DNA of 64,000 nt from Lentimicrobium saccharophilum (GTDB taxonomy: Bacteria; Bacteroidota; Bacteroidia; Bacteroidales; Lentimicrobiaceae): NCBI RefSeq assembly GCF_001192835.1, contig NZ_DF968183.1, positions 744,001 through 808,000 on the forward strand, given 5' to 3'. Positions 3,944-61,645 of this stretch are shown piece after piece (position 1 is the first letter of the stretch; each line of letters starts with the position of its first letter). The translations under genes were made by a program, and so were the position numbers. Below the pieces are notes generated by a model. That model did no database searches and was not told where the DNA came from. It saw only the letters and a list, made by a program, of their open reading frames with translations.

Positions 3944-6900
3944 TTTTCCCTTCTATTATGGCAATCTCCGGAATTGAATTCATATAAAACAGGTTAACCC
4001 TTACCGGATGCTCTTTGTCATTCAACCTATTAAATACCTTTTTGCAATTCTTCATTTTCTGCTCATCACTCATACCATCGGTAAACTCCGGTAACTCGCC
4101 CAAATGCTTGATGATTTCACGGTTGTGTTTTTTTAGCAATTCAGGGAAATACAACTCATACACCATGCCGTCTATAATTTGCTCGAAGTATATTGGCATC
4201 AGCTGATCCGTTTTTAATTGACTTTCTACTTCTTTTAGAAATAAAATATAGTCGATTAATCTTTTAAAAGGTATTTGTTCAGAAGTTTGAATTTTCTTAA
4301 TAGGAATGAATTGCAAGGGTTCTAGCGTTAATTCTAACGCTTCTCCTTTTCTTTTCCCCATATAATAAAGCCAGAAATAGGTTAATTTACTTGTAAGAAT
4401 CGATTGGATATATTTTAAGCTATAACCTTGCTTATTAAGCGTAATGTAAAATACATCTGATGCAGCATACCATTCTTCTTTTGAATAACCAAAAGTGTTA
4501 GTATTACTTCTTTGAGGACATAATATTTTTTCTGACTCAAAATTAATGTTTGGGCGATCAGTCGTTAAAGCCCACCATTTACCCTTTTGATATGCTGATT
4601 GTAATACACCATTTATTGAACGTTCTTTCAGAATTGCTTTATACGAAATTAAGTGTTGGTACAAAGACTTGTATTTTTTAAATTCATCTTCCTTTTCGAT
4701 CTTATTAACATAAAGGAAAAAGTGCTTGGGATTTGTTTCTACCCTATATTTTCTAATATCTGAGTTTTTAAAGAAAGGTTTAATAAACTTTTGTTCCTCT
4801 TTGTTTAAAGACAGTTCAGTTACTTCTTCTTTAGTTAAAATAAAAACTCCATTGTTGACATTTTTGCTTTTATCAATGTATCTGTCTTTGCCTGTTACAA
4901 TCCCTTGGTTGATATTACAAATGCCATTTGTAACCTTTTTACCAGATATTACCCCTTTTTTCTTTTCTCCTTCCGATTCATTATCGGAAAGTTTTTCGCA
5001 ATTATTAAAAAGTTGATTTATGATCCCAGATACTTTTGCTGGTAAAAAATGAACATAGCCTGTCCAGTTACTAAAAATCTTTTTTTGATCTGCACTAAAA
5101 TTGAGTTCATTTTGACGATAACTAAAAATATTTTCAGAATATTTGTTTTGATAGATTGTACATTTAATACTTTGATTGGGTGTTGCATTCTTTTTAAGTA
5201 AAAAGATGTTTGTGTGCACTCCCGCCTCAAAAATGGCATTTTCATTGAAGTTAATATATTCAATGATTGAATAGTCCTCAAGTACTCTTTTTCTGAGTTT
5301 TTTTCCCCCTTGAGTGGTTATCCAATAATTAGGCGTTATAAAAGTGTTTACACCATGCTCCTTTGTAAGTGTATAGCTTTTATGAAGAAAGAAGTACCAA
5401 TAATCCATTTTCTTTTCAAAATTCGGATCCTTACTAAGTGGTTCAAAAAGTGATTTATTTCCTTTTTGACCAATATACGGTGGATTTGCAATAACAATAT
5501 CAAAACCTCCGCTCCCATTCACCAAATAGGGATTCAGCACCTCAGGAAAATCAAGTTTCCAATCAAAATGGTTAAAAGGTTCATCAGGGTGTTGAAGTAG
5601 GTTTTTCAGTTTGCCAATTAGTTTATCGAAACCTTTAATTTGCAATTCCCGTTCTGTGTTGTGCTTTATATCGGCAGACGTAGGCATAAACCCACCTTTT
5701 TGTACAGTTTTACTTATGTATAGTTCTTTGTTAAAAGAAAGCTGGTTAATAAGCAGTTCTATTTTCAGGTTGCGGATTTCAGCCTGTAGTTTTTTCTTAT
5801 TCTTGTTGTTCGGGTTAAAGTATTTCCTTTGTTTGTCGGCAACTTCAACCAGCAAACGCTGTACATTCTTTACATATTCATCGGCTTTGCCCACGCTGCT
5901 TTTACGTTCCCAGTCAATCTCCACAATTTCGCCATCAAACTTACTTATCAGCGAGTCGCCCACCACAATTTTATAATCGAGGTTCGGCAGGGCTTTGGGC
6001 TTTTCTTCGTCAACCACCAAACTCAGCCAGAAACGCAAGCGGGCAATATCTACTGCACCTTTCTCAATATCCACCCCATAAATAGAGTTTTGGATAATGT
6101 TTAGTTTGGTTTCGGCAGGTTTCCATTCCTTGCCGGTTTCGTAAGCAATAAGTTCTTTGATACTGAAAATTTCCTGTAATAAGCCCATAGGAAACGCACC
6201 TGAGCCAATTGCGGGGTCGCAGATTTTTACCTTGTCAAGGGCTTTTTCAAGTTCAGTAATTTCAGGTTTTAGAACATCATCAACTATTTTGTTTTTCAGC
6301 AAATGATTTACGGCTTCCCTTTCAGCAACTTCATCTTTTATCTGCAAGGTGGTACACAGGTATTCAGTTAAACTTTCCTGGCACATGTAATGCACAATTT
6401 CCTTGGGAGTATAAAATGCACCTTTGTCTTTGTTGTCCTCCAACAGATTTTCAAAAATATGACCTAACATTTCAGGGTCAACGGCTACGGTGTGGTCATC
6501 GGGGCTGTCTTCGTAAACAGTAAAGTTAAAGGCATCCAGAAAGTCGAGAAAACCACGAGCATTTCCTTTGCTCTTTTCAGTAAGAATATTATCTTCAAAA
6601 TCAGGATGGTGAAAGAGTTTTGATTTGAAAGTCAACAAGTGTTCATCAAATTCTTCTTTATCGAACAACCCCCCATTCAGGAAAGGAACTTTAACGATTT
6701 TACCATCGGGCATTTTAAAGTCTTCATTAGGTCTTTTTACTTCATCAGCATTTAGAGTGTCGAAGAATAGTTTTGTCAACCAATTGCTGTAAAAAGCATC
6801 ATTTCCGTCCGATTTGTTAAAGAGTTGTTTGATGAAATCGCCCAGACCATCAGAGTAATTGGTATCGCTTGCACCCAACCAACCCTTTTTCTGAACGAAG

Positions 6901-56480: not shown

Positions 56481-56927
56481 ATGCCTACAAGCGCCAAAAA
56501 CTTCTTCACCCGCGAAGAGCAGGAGGATATCAAGCAGGCCATCCTGGATGCGGAACTCGATACCTCCGGGGAAATAAGGGTTCATATCGAGAACAAATTC
56601 AAAGGGGATATCCTGAAAAGGGCGGCCTCCATCTTTCAGTTGCTCGAAATGGATAAAACCGATCAGCGGAACGGGGTACTGTTTTATCTTTCCATACAGA
56701 ACCGCTCCTTTGCCATTATCGGCGATGAGGGCATCAATACCGTGGTGCCCGAAGATTTCTGGGAGAACACCAAGCAGATCCTGATCAACCATTTCCGCGA
56801 AGGACAATTTGCCGATGGGATTATTGAAGGAATTCATGAGGCCGGCAAACAACTCAAGAAACATTTTCCATATACATCCAGCGATGTCAATGAGTTATCA
56901 GACGAAATCTCTTTCGGGAATAATTAA
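56481..56927 (+). CDS. TPM-domain protein, cytosolic type
   Basis: 148 residues with a TPM (TLP18.3/Psb32/MOLO-1) fold: FTREEQEDIKQAILDAELDTSGEIRVHIEN, FYLSIQNRSFAIIGDEGINTVVPEDFWENT and IIEGIHEAGKQL. No signal peptide or membrane span. It follows LemA by 35 bp and precedes a second TPM gene by 10 bp. In related operons this small TPM protein pairs with the membrane-anchored one. Confidence 0.88.
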   Translation: MPTSAKNFFTREEQEDIKQAILDAELDTSGEIRVHIENKFKGDILKRAASIFQLLEMDKTDQRNGVLFYLSIQNRSFAIIGDEGINTVVPEDFWENTKQILINHFREGQFADGIIEGIHEAGKQLKKHFPYTSSDVNELSDEISFGNN

Positions 56928-56937
56928 TAAACAGATC

Positions 56938-57738
56938 ATGAAATTATCCCGCACTAAAAGCTGCTTCTTACTGCTTGCGCTGATCGTTTTCACCTTCAGT
57001 GTTTCGGCCGGAATCCCTGAAAAGCCGGTACCTCCGAGGCTGGTGAACGACCTGGCCGGACTTCTCAGTGCAGAAGAGGTGGCACGGCTTGAGCAAAAAC
57101 TCGTTGAATACAACGACAGCACCTCCACGCAGATTACCGTTGTTACGTTGAAAAGCCTCGACGGATACGACATCGACGACCTGGCGCAGCGCATCGGGCA
57201 ATCCTGGGGCGCAGGCCAGCAGCAGTATGACAACGGGATTGTTATCCTCATAATACCAAAAGTCGGCAATGAGCGTGGACAGGCGGCCATCGCCACAGGA
57301 TACGGGATGGAGGAGATTATCCCGGATGCCTTCGCCCGCAGGATTGTGGACAATGAAATGATCCCCTTTTTCAGAAATAACGATTATTTCGGCGGCATCA
57401 ACGCCGGCACGGATATCATCATCGACCTGGCTTCGGGGCGGTTCAAGGCTGAAGATTACGAATCCAAAGAAGGCGCCCTGGCGGTGATCATCCCCATTGT
57501 GATCATTGTGCTGATTATCATCCTGCTGGGCAGGAATTCCGGCAATAAGCGCCACAACATCGGTTCTTCCAATCTGCCTTTCTGGATTCTGCTGTCGATG
57601 CTGAATAACAGCGGCAGAAGTTCCGGAGGCAGCTGGGGCGGTGGCGGCGGTGGCGGCTTCGGCGGAGGCGGAGGGGGCGGTTTCGGCGGCTTCGGCGGCG
57701 GCGGTTTCGGCGGCGGCGGCGCCAGCGGCAGTTGGTAG
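56938..57738 (+). CDS. TPM-domain membrane protein with Gly-rich tail
   Basis: 266 residues from ATG 56938. Signal peptide (LIVFTFSVSAG), TPM domain (RLVNDLAGLLSAEEVARLEQKL to VIPDAFARRIVDNEMIPFFRNNDYFGGINAG), one membrane span (LAVIIPIVIIVLIIILLG), and a C-terminal tail very rich in Gly with scattered Phe and Trp (from about 225). This is the YgcG-type protein that accompanies LemA. The tail is encoded by GGC-rich repeats and may be flexible or an assembly tag. Same operon as LemA. Confidence 0.9.
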   Translation: MKLSRTKSCFLLLALIVFTFSVSAGIPEKPVPPRLVNDLAGLLSAEEVARLEQKLVEYNDSTSTQITVVTLKSLDGYDIDDLAQRIGQSWGAGQQQYDNGIVILIIPKVGNERGQAAIATGYGMEEIIPDAFARRIVDNEMIPFFRNNDYFGGINAGTDIIIDLASGRFKAEDYESKEGALAVIIPIVIIVLIIILLGRNSGNKRHNIGSSNLPFWILLSMLNNSGRSSGGSWGGGGGGGFGGGGGGGFGGFGGGGFGGGGASGSW

Positions 57739-59668: not shown

Positions 59669-59756
59669 GGAAAGATGGCAGAGTGGTCGATTGCGGCGGT
59701 CTTGAAAACCGTTGACCTGCAAGGGTCCGGGGGTTCGAATCCCTCTCTTTCCGCCA
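59669..59756 (+). tRNA. tRNA-Ser (TGA)
   Basis: 88 nt including an encoded CCA. Acceptor stem GGAAAGA (59669-59675) pairs with TCTTTCC (59746-59752); discriminator G then CCA (59754-59756). The anticodon loop CTTGAAA between CGGT and ACCG gives anticodon TGA (59703-59705), which reads UCN (A). A long variable arm (TTGACCTGCAAGGGTC) and GGTTCGAATCC TPsiC loop fit a class II serine tRNA. Confidence 0.95.
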
Positions 59757-59767
59757 GACACTCCCGG

Positions 59768-59796
59768 TGCCCCGCGAAGCGGGGCATTTTTATTTT
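59768..59796 (+). terminator. Terminator of tRNA-Ser
   Basis: TGCCCCGC, loop GAA, GCGGGGCA, then TTTTTATTTT. A copy of the same stem type (GCCCCGC...GCGGGGC) is found inside the repeat array near 60707-60723. Confidence 0.85.
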
Positions 59797-61645
59797 CCGG
59801 GAAATCCGGCGAATTCTTTAATTCGGCCGGAGAGACCGGAAAATAAAAACGCGGGCGACAGCCGGCGCCGGGAGTGTCTGAAGCCCCCCCCTCAAAGGGA
59901 TCACCGAAGGTAATCCCGAACCTTTCACCAAAGAATTACACCTTTTCCGGGAAATCCGGCGAATTCTTTAATTCGGCCGGAGAGACCGGAAAATAAAAAC
60001 GCGGGCGACAGCCGGCGCCGGGAGTGTCTGAAGCCCCCCCCCTCAAGGGATCACCGAAGGTAATCCTGCACCTTTTTACCAAAGATTTGCATCTTTTTCC
60101 GGGAAATCCGGCGAATTCTTTAATTCGACCGGAGAGACCGGAAAATAAAAACGCGGGCGACAGCCGGCGCCGGGAGTGTCTGAAGCCCCCCCCCTCAAGG
60201 GATCACCGAAGGTAATCCTGCACCTTTTTACCAAAGATTTGCATCTTTTTCCGGGAAATCCGGCGAATTCTTTAATTCAGCCGGAGAGACCGGAAAATAA
60301 AAACGCGGGCGACAGCCGGCGCCGGGAGTGTCTGAAGCCCCCCCTCAAAGGGATCACCGAAGGTAATCCCGCACCTTTTATCAAAGAATTGCACCTTTTC
60401 CGGGAAATCCGGCGAATTCTTTAATTCGGCCGGAGAAACCGGAAAATAAAAACGCAGGCGACAGCCGGCGCCGGGAGTGTCTGAAGCCCCCCCTCAAAGG
60501 GATCACCGAAGGTAATCCCGAACCTGTCACCAAAGAATTGCACCTTTTCCCGGAAAAAAGAAAGACAGCCGGCGCCGGGAGTGTCTGAAGCCCCCCCTCA
60601 AGGGATCACCGAAGGTAATCCCAAAAATTCTATAAAAGAATTGCATCTTTTGCCAGGAAATCCAACGAAGGGCAACCTTCGGCCGGAGAGACCGGAAAAT
60701 AAAAACGCCCCGCTCAGCGGGGCGCCGGGAGTGTCTGAAGCCCCCCCCTCAAAGGGATCACCGAAGGTAATCCCGAACCTTTCACCAAAGAATTACACCT
60801 TTTCCGGGAAATCCGGCGAATTCTTTAATTCGGCCGGAGAGACCGGAAAATAAAAACGCAGGCGACAGCCGGCGCCGGGAGTGTCTGAAGCCCCCCCTCA
60901 AAGGGATAACCGAAGGTAATCCCGAACCTTTTATCAAAGAATTGCACCTTTCCCCGGAAAAACGAACGCCAGCCGGCGCCGGGAGTGTCTGAAGCCCCCC
61001 CTCAAGGGATCACCGAAGGTAATCCCGCACCTTTCACCAAAGAATTGCAACTTTTCCCGGAAAAACGAACGACAGCCGGCGCCGGGAGTGTCTGAAGCCC
61101 CCCCTCAAATGGATCACCGAAGGTAATCCCGCACCTTTTACCAAAGATTTGCATCTTTTTCCGGGAAATCCGGCGAATTCTTTAATTCGGCCGGAGAGAC
61201 CGGAAAATAAAAACGGAGGCGACAGCCGGCGCCGGGAGTGTCTGAAGCCCCCCCTCAAAGGGATCACCGAAGGTAATCCCGCACCTTTCACCAAAGAATT
61301 GCAACTTTTCCCGGAAAAACGAACGACAGCCGGCGCCGGGAGTGTCTGAAGCCCCCCCCTCAAGGGATCACCGAAGGTAATCCTGCACCTTTTTACCAAA
61401 GATTTGCATCTTTTTCCGGGAAATCCGGCGAAGGGCAACCTTCGACCGGAGAGACCGGAAAATAAAAACGCGGGCGACAGCCGGCGCCGGGAGTGTCTGA
61501 AGCCCCCCTCAAGGGATCATCGAAGGTAATCCCGCACCTTTCACCAAAGAATTGCACCTTTTCCGGGAAATCCGGCGAATTCTTTAATTCGGCCGGAGAG
61601 ACCGGAAAATAAAAACGCGGGCGACAGCCGGCGCCGGGAGTGTGT
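59797..61645. repeat. Tandem repeat array downstream of tRNA-Ser
   Basis: Thirteen successive intervals between the sequence GGAGTGTCTG measure about 150, 152, 152, 149, 104, 150, 150, 104, 103, 150, 104, 151 and 147 bp, so units are either about 150 or about 104 bp. The long units carry an extra ~46 bp with the hairpin CCGGCGAATT-CTTT-AATTC...GCCGG and a GGAAAATAAAAACG tail. All units share GGGATCACC-GAA-GGTAATCCC (a hairpin with one mismatch) and a C-rich run. The tRNA 3' end is followed by AGACACTCCCGG, the inverse of the repeat's CCGGGAGTGTCT. The last unit is truncated at about 61645. Short open frames inside are by-products. Confidence 0.92.

Follow-up and report, generated by a model that had tools for sequence, protein, structure and literature searches.

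A tandem array behind tRNA-Ser(UGA) in Lentimicrobium saccharophilum as the probable amplified copy of a non-coding element inserting at tRNA and tmRNA 3' ends

In Escherichia coli, the tRNA gene tyrT is followed by 178-bp repeats (rtT RNA), and a role in regulation or in tRNA 3' processing has been proposed for this RNA. Casposons, the nearest known tRNA-3'-end inserters, enter at the very 3' end of tRNA genes and give target duplications of 14-15 bp (PMC6977970). The GIY-YIG homing elements, of which SegB of T-even phages is one (PMC13096335), form a further system for comparison. The locus considered here lies in a window of 64,000 nucleotides from Lentimicrobium saccharophilum (contig NZ_DF968183.1, positions 744,001 to 808,000), in which a tandem array stands directly behind tRNA-Ser(UGA). 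This array probably arose by amplification of a small non-coding element of mobile type, which in Bacteroidota and their relatives inserts where tRNA and tmRNA genes end (3'), and the copy seen here is partly decayed.

The tRNA-Ser(UGA) gene, the putative insertion target, occupies positions 59669-59756 of the plus strand (ARAGORN; Rfam tRNA, 57.5 bits), and by employing TRF an array with scores of 323-1406 was placed at 59793-61643. A preliminary description of the locus had counted thirteen units directly behind the tRNA. Explicit parsing gave the same number, i.e. 13 complete units of the element's 3' half on the plus strand (59868-61633), each with a core hairpin, followed at 61634-61643 by a truncated last unit which consists of the outer strand only and ends after CCGGGAGTGT. 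The unit spacings are 150, 152, 152, 149, 104, 150, 150, 104, 103, 150, 104, 151 and 147, giving nine long units of 147-152 bp (80-99% identical among themselves) and four short ones of 103-104 bp (92-99%). The 12-base sequence after the tRNA had been called the inverse of the repeat boundary, and indeed AGACACTCCCGG (59756-59767) and the boundary CCGGGAGTGTCT, present 13 times, are exact reverse complements. Chance is excluded as a source of the array by the TRF score, the identity of the units and the fold (DNA z -9.3). A protein-coding reading was rejected, the ORFs inside the array being short overlapping repeat frames. Elsewhere in the window, a GGC-rich tandem repeat at 57637-57728 corresponds to the glycine-rich C-terminus of the ORF at 56809-57738.

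The first, complete element, a four-way-junction insertion element at 59756-59917 on the plus strand, scored 79.6 bits (E 4e-19) with a covariance model, R1, and it is to this element that the above z value belongs. Its outer stem is made up of the 5' strand at 59756-59767 and the 3' strand at 59868-59879, the latter being the boundary that parsing found repeated in all units. Between the two strands follow, on the plus strand, hairpin 1 with a T-run (TTTTTATTTT, 59768-59796), which according to sequence and fold is the tRNA's intrinsic terminator, supplied by the element; arm 2 (59787-59849), running from TTTTTATTTTCCGG to CCGGAAAATAAAAA with an inner hairpin, as indicated by the fold and by covariation in relatives; and hairpin 3 (CGCGGGCGACAGCCGGCG, 59850-59867), as indicated by the fold. 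The outer stem forms an inverted repeat beyond which the element continues on its 3' side, over a linker recognized by sequence (GAAGCCCCCCCCTCAAA, 59880-59896) to the core hairpin (GGGATCACCGAAGGTAATCCC, 59897-59917). In comparison with relatives, this core hairpin is a pseudo-T-arm, ending in the T-arm vestige AATCCC. The order outer stem, terminator hairpin, long arm, third hairpin, linker and pseudo-T-arm hairpin (GGGATCACCGNAGGTAATCCC on Ser targets) is that of the element in general, which measures ~130-175 bp, lacks an ORF of its own and has many tRNA hosts, features that it has in common with MITEs.

The exact core hairpin was found in 103 stretches when 84,980 GTDB species genomes were searched, and the 80 titles listed for core-bearing stretches name Bacteroidota, Chlorobiota or Ignavibacteria groups. 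A same-strand tRNA or tmRNA gene lies upstream in 82 of the 103, within about 480 bp and mostly at 130-155 bp; many of the others are contig ends or stand behind tRNA 3'-end fragments. The hosts of the exact core comprise all four Ser isoacceptors, Val, Arg, Phe, Lys and tmRNA. This first survey required a Ser-type core, a weakness covered by the matches of R1 at other tRNAs, including Cys, Pro, Val(GAC) and Arg, although Ser-type copies were also the basis of R1. R1 has matches in 14 genomes, the present one among them, out of 99 from the order. In the other genomes 22 matches were inspected, and every one of the 22 starts no more than a few bases from a tRNA or tmRNA end or in a tandem copy behind one. 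In a phylum-wide survey that allowed up to one mismatch, the core was met in 2 of 392 evenly drawn genomes, and the Ser-type core is thus uncommon in that sample. A plasmid search yielded no match to the element. The viral contigs yielded one, behind a tRNA-Ser 3'-end fragment (L254, an IMG/VR contig, positions 4950-5500), perhaps at the edge of a provirus inserted in tRNA-Ser. When Rfam was searched at gathering and permissive thresholds, only tRNA reached threshold, the remainder being at chance level or antisense to tRNA, and no earlier description of the element was found in the literature on tRNA-end repeats and on GIY-YIG at tRNAs outside subscription journals.

Copies of at least 90 nt were compared with 30 dinucleotide shuffles each, and 71 of 71 folded below their shuffles (z -3.5 to -14.7, median -7.4). 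The common fold is a four-way junction of outer stem, hairpin 1, a long arm 2 with an apex that is mostly CTTG, and hairpin 3, followed by linker and core hairpin; copies at tRNA-Arg are shorter and have fewer arms. In two sequence-only alignments, covariation amounted to 0.372 vs 0.145 and 0.330 vs 0.119, above both shuffles and slid controls, and the outer stem is 98% paired, both partners having changed in most of its pairs. Since palindromes can be kept perfect or homogenised by template switching, covariation alone is no proof of selection. Unit 6 of the window array, where hairpin 3 is replaced by an inverted copy of hairpin 1 (CGCCCCGCTCAGCGGGGCG), looks like such a template-switching event.

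The strong fold and the covariation, together with an orientation that is co-directional with the tRNA in nearly all cases, would also suit a functional RNA, in which read-through from the tRNA yields a structured trailer, or transcription of the minus strand a series of terminated RNAs, selected for regulation or for tRNA 3' processing. We consider this improbable, as it has to be reconciled with a sporadic distribution (14 of 99 genomes), with many different tRNA hosts and target duplications, and with a terminator that separates the tRNA from the remainder of the element.

Target duplications are seen in relatives. At least 17 nt of the 3' end of the element's own tRNA are repeated after the core in 17 of 80 copies; the duplicated 17 nt are made up of AATCCC and the 11 nt with which the annotated tRNA ends. 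A match of at least 6 nt after the core occurs with the own tRNA in 18 of 80 cases vs 34 of 5904 with other tRNAs, and the original tRNA terminator can stand behind the duplicated tRNA end (L088, L096, L132). The core arms also vary with the target, being GGGAT/ATCCC on Ser, TGGAT/ATCCA on Val, CGGAT/ATCCG on Cys and CAAGATT/AATCTTG on Pro, in agreement with the T-stem, and this fits a duplicated T-arm with a replaced loop. At three loci (L066, L087, L135), a different palindromic sequence has taken the place of the core's apex, with most of the stem GGGAT.AC/GT.ATCCC preserved. Tandem copies of whole units including the tRNA 3' end occur at L140 and, at tRNA-Val, at L241/L229/L246. The mode of repetition in the window, i.e. 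of the 3' half alone from near the apex of arm 2, is shared by L076 and L046; in the window array the tRNA-end duplication has decayed to AATCC(C/T), a T-arm remnant kept by every unit. The preliminary statement that no tRNA 3' end is repeated thus holds for the complete 3' end, but neither for this remnant nor for the relatives, which repeat the full 17 nt.

We infer that insertion would leave the tRNA intact: the element begins directly after its end, brings its own terminator hairpin and folds into the four-way junction. Behind the element would stand a 17-bp copy of the T-arm 3' strand and acceptor end of the tRNA, and the core hairpin would have arisen from this second T-arm by replacement of its loop TTCGA with about ATCACCGNAGGTA, an alteration that may serve to escape re-cutting. 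In this genome, one such element is located behind tRNA-Ser(UGA) and another behind tRNA-Ser(CGA). Each array would then have expanded locally, the 3' half between the vicinity of the arm 2 apex and the core being duplicated in tandem, probably by unequal exchange or slippage.

A link between the repeat unit and tRNA, as put forward in the preliminary description, is upheld by the rest of the genome (two contigs, 4.5 Mb), where the only other strong copies form an array behind tRNA-Ser(CGA) on contig 1, with a period of ~116 bp and about 7.4 copies. The two arrays have little in common beyond the core hairpin (GGGATCACCGAAGGTAATCCC at UGA, GGGATCACCGCAGGTAATCCC at CGA), the remainder of each unit being an inverted copy of the 3' flank of its own tRNA, including a terminator-like hairpin and T-run. 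When the tRNA-Ser flank was compared in relatives, some genomes of the same genus had the same architecture with different arm sequences, and in others a plain terminator stands behind tRNA-Ser(UGA) (L053, L054). Downstream of the tRNA-Ser element in two same-genus genomes (L044, L048) lie ORFs that, judged by eye, are similar to antitoxins of the Xre/ParS type.

That the arms of each array copy their own tRNA flank, and that the terminator hairpin is found again, inverted, in unit 6, is what one would expect from a purely local origin, as suggested earlier, with the tRNA terminator as the starting point of fold-back copying and slippage. However, the first unit fits a lineage-wide model with a conserved core that a local process would not produce, and this reading is accordingly very hard to sustain. 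Since the first unit belongs to a widespread family of structured insertions that has its own terminator and duplicates its target, the local terminator is not the sole origin of the array. From the proposed growth out of the terminator region there remains the local tandem growth, as a later step.

Weak matches to the core elsewhere in the genome are pieces of 15-18 bases and one of 33 bases at 79% identity. Eleven such loci were read: ten belong to dispersed repeats of palindromic or intergenic kind, the eleventh matches coding-like sequence by chance, and no tRNA is present at any of them. The dispersed palindromic repeats of this genome (L030, L033, L034, L036-L039 and similar ones), located away from tRNAs, share TCACCGAAGGTAATC with the core.

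Y1/RAYT, Cas1 and stand-alone GIY-YIG enzymes were considered as general mobilisers and rejected, each being absent from some carrier genomes and none of them present in every one. In favour of a hairpin element of the REP kind, with a Y1 (RAYT/IS200-type) transposase as its mobiliser, one can point to the C-GNA-G apices that the core and hairpin 3 often show, and which are typical of very stable DNA hairpins, to the Y1 proteins encoded by 18 of 20 carriers, and to the occurrence of the core stem-loop sequence TCACCGAAGGTAATC in dispersed palindromes. The two remaining carriers (G055, G483) nevertheless lack a Y1 protein, the Y1 loci of this genome are not flanked by the core, and the element family has a target duplication, whereas Y1 elements are not known to make one. 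Transposition by Y1 is therefore quite unlikely.

Another reading refines the insertion of a mobile-type element by naming an enzyme: the mini-elements would be non-autonomous derivatives of GIY-YIG homing elements at tRNA 3' ends. An empty tRNA gene would be cut in its T-arm by the nuclease, the element would be copied in during repair, and the altered second T-arm would be immune. GIY-YIG ORFs, searched by tblastn and with the domain confirmed by Pfam, were found 71-459 bp downstream of tRNA-Ser and tRNA-Leu, the 3' end of the tRNA reappearing beyond the ORF (L202, L220, L223, L224), as well as behind tRNA-Val (in tandem) and tRNA-Asp in this genome. Two tmRNA loci (L112; L198/L200) moreover consist of tmRNA, GIY-YIG ORF, linker TTTGCAGG and core hairpin. 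With ORFs at the same sites and with the same duplications, and with two tmRNA loci in which the core follows the ORF, a homing origin of the element is plausible. Against this stands the finding of an ORF inside only two core-bearing elements; among ~100 core loci it is inside L112 only, and just upstream of the tRNA in two more. The GIY-YIG copies at tRNA-Val and tRNA-Asp are without the core, four carriers (G025, G055, G483, G492) have only UvrC-sized GIY-YIG, and an intact tRNA stands just upstream in only 4 of the 22 small GIY-YIG loci inspected in carriers. As a specific account, derivation from GIY-YIG elements is thus possible, though rather doubtful. In this genome, on contig 2 (~958.8-959.6 kb; L191, 1390-2200), tRNA-Val(UAC) is followed by tandem 348-bp units of tRNA 3' half, terminator and GIY-YIG ORF, and on contig 1 (~959.8 kb; L189, 1400-1820), tRNA-Asp precedes a GIY-YIG ORF, behind which comes a second, degenerate 3' half resembling that of tRNA-Asp.

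Returning to the inserted element with later local amplification, we tentatively propose, as a suggestion that may well need revision, a new class of selfish non-coding element. In it, a DNA (or RNA) four-way junction would target the T-arm of tRNA and tmRNA genes, rebuild the tRNA end by a 17-bp duplication, protect the duplicate from re-insertion by altering its T-loop, and be able to expand into rtT-like arrays, being moved in trans by a putative enzyme. What was an isolated tandem repeat can now be placed in a family that spans the lineage and has exact boundaries, a rule for its targets and a model of its structure, and the question of how a ~150-bp non-coding element finds tRNA T-arms becomes testable. 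For tandem arrays next to tRNA genes, tyrT/rtT among them, the element provides a possible origin. It may also explain assembly breaks in relatives, where contigs end right behind tRNA-Ser (L041, L043, L049).

Compared with known systems, the element differs from casposons in having neither coding capacity nor casposon-type terminal inverted repeats, in the absence of Cas1 from 11 of 20 carrier genomes and from the element itself, and in its duplication of 17 bp, almost wholly within the tRNA. With REP/BIME sequences (RAYT transposases) it has in common that these are small palindromic non-coding repeats, but it is restricted to tRNA and tmRNA 3' ends, has a target duplication and occurs in some carriers without Y1. 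GIY-YIG ORFs share with it both the sites and the type of 3'-end duplication, whereas the window array and nearly all core elements encode no nuclease. As in MITEs, there is a target site duplication, 17 nt in relatives and decayed in the window. In comparison with tyrT/rtT, the window units are without the full tRNA end, having only AATCC(C/T), no Rfam family except tRNA reaches threshold, and the element is a lineage-wide four-way junction with a conserved, target-matched core. The likeness to tyrT/rtT is nevertheless closer than the preliminary description could know, as tandem units stand directly behind a tRNA gene in the window, and in relatives (L140, L241/L229/L246) each of the tandem units carries the tRNA 3' end.
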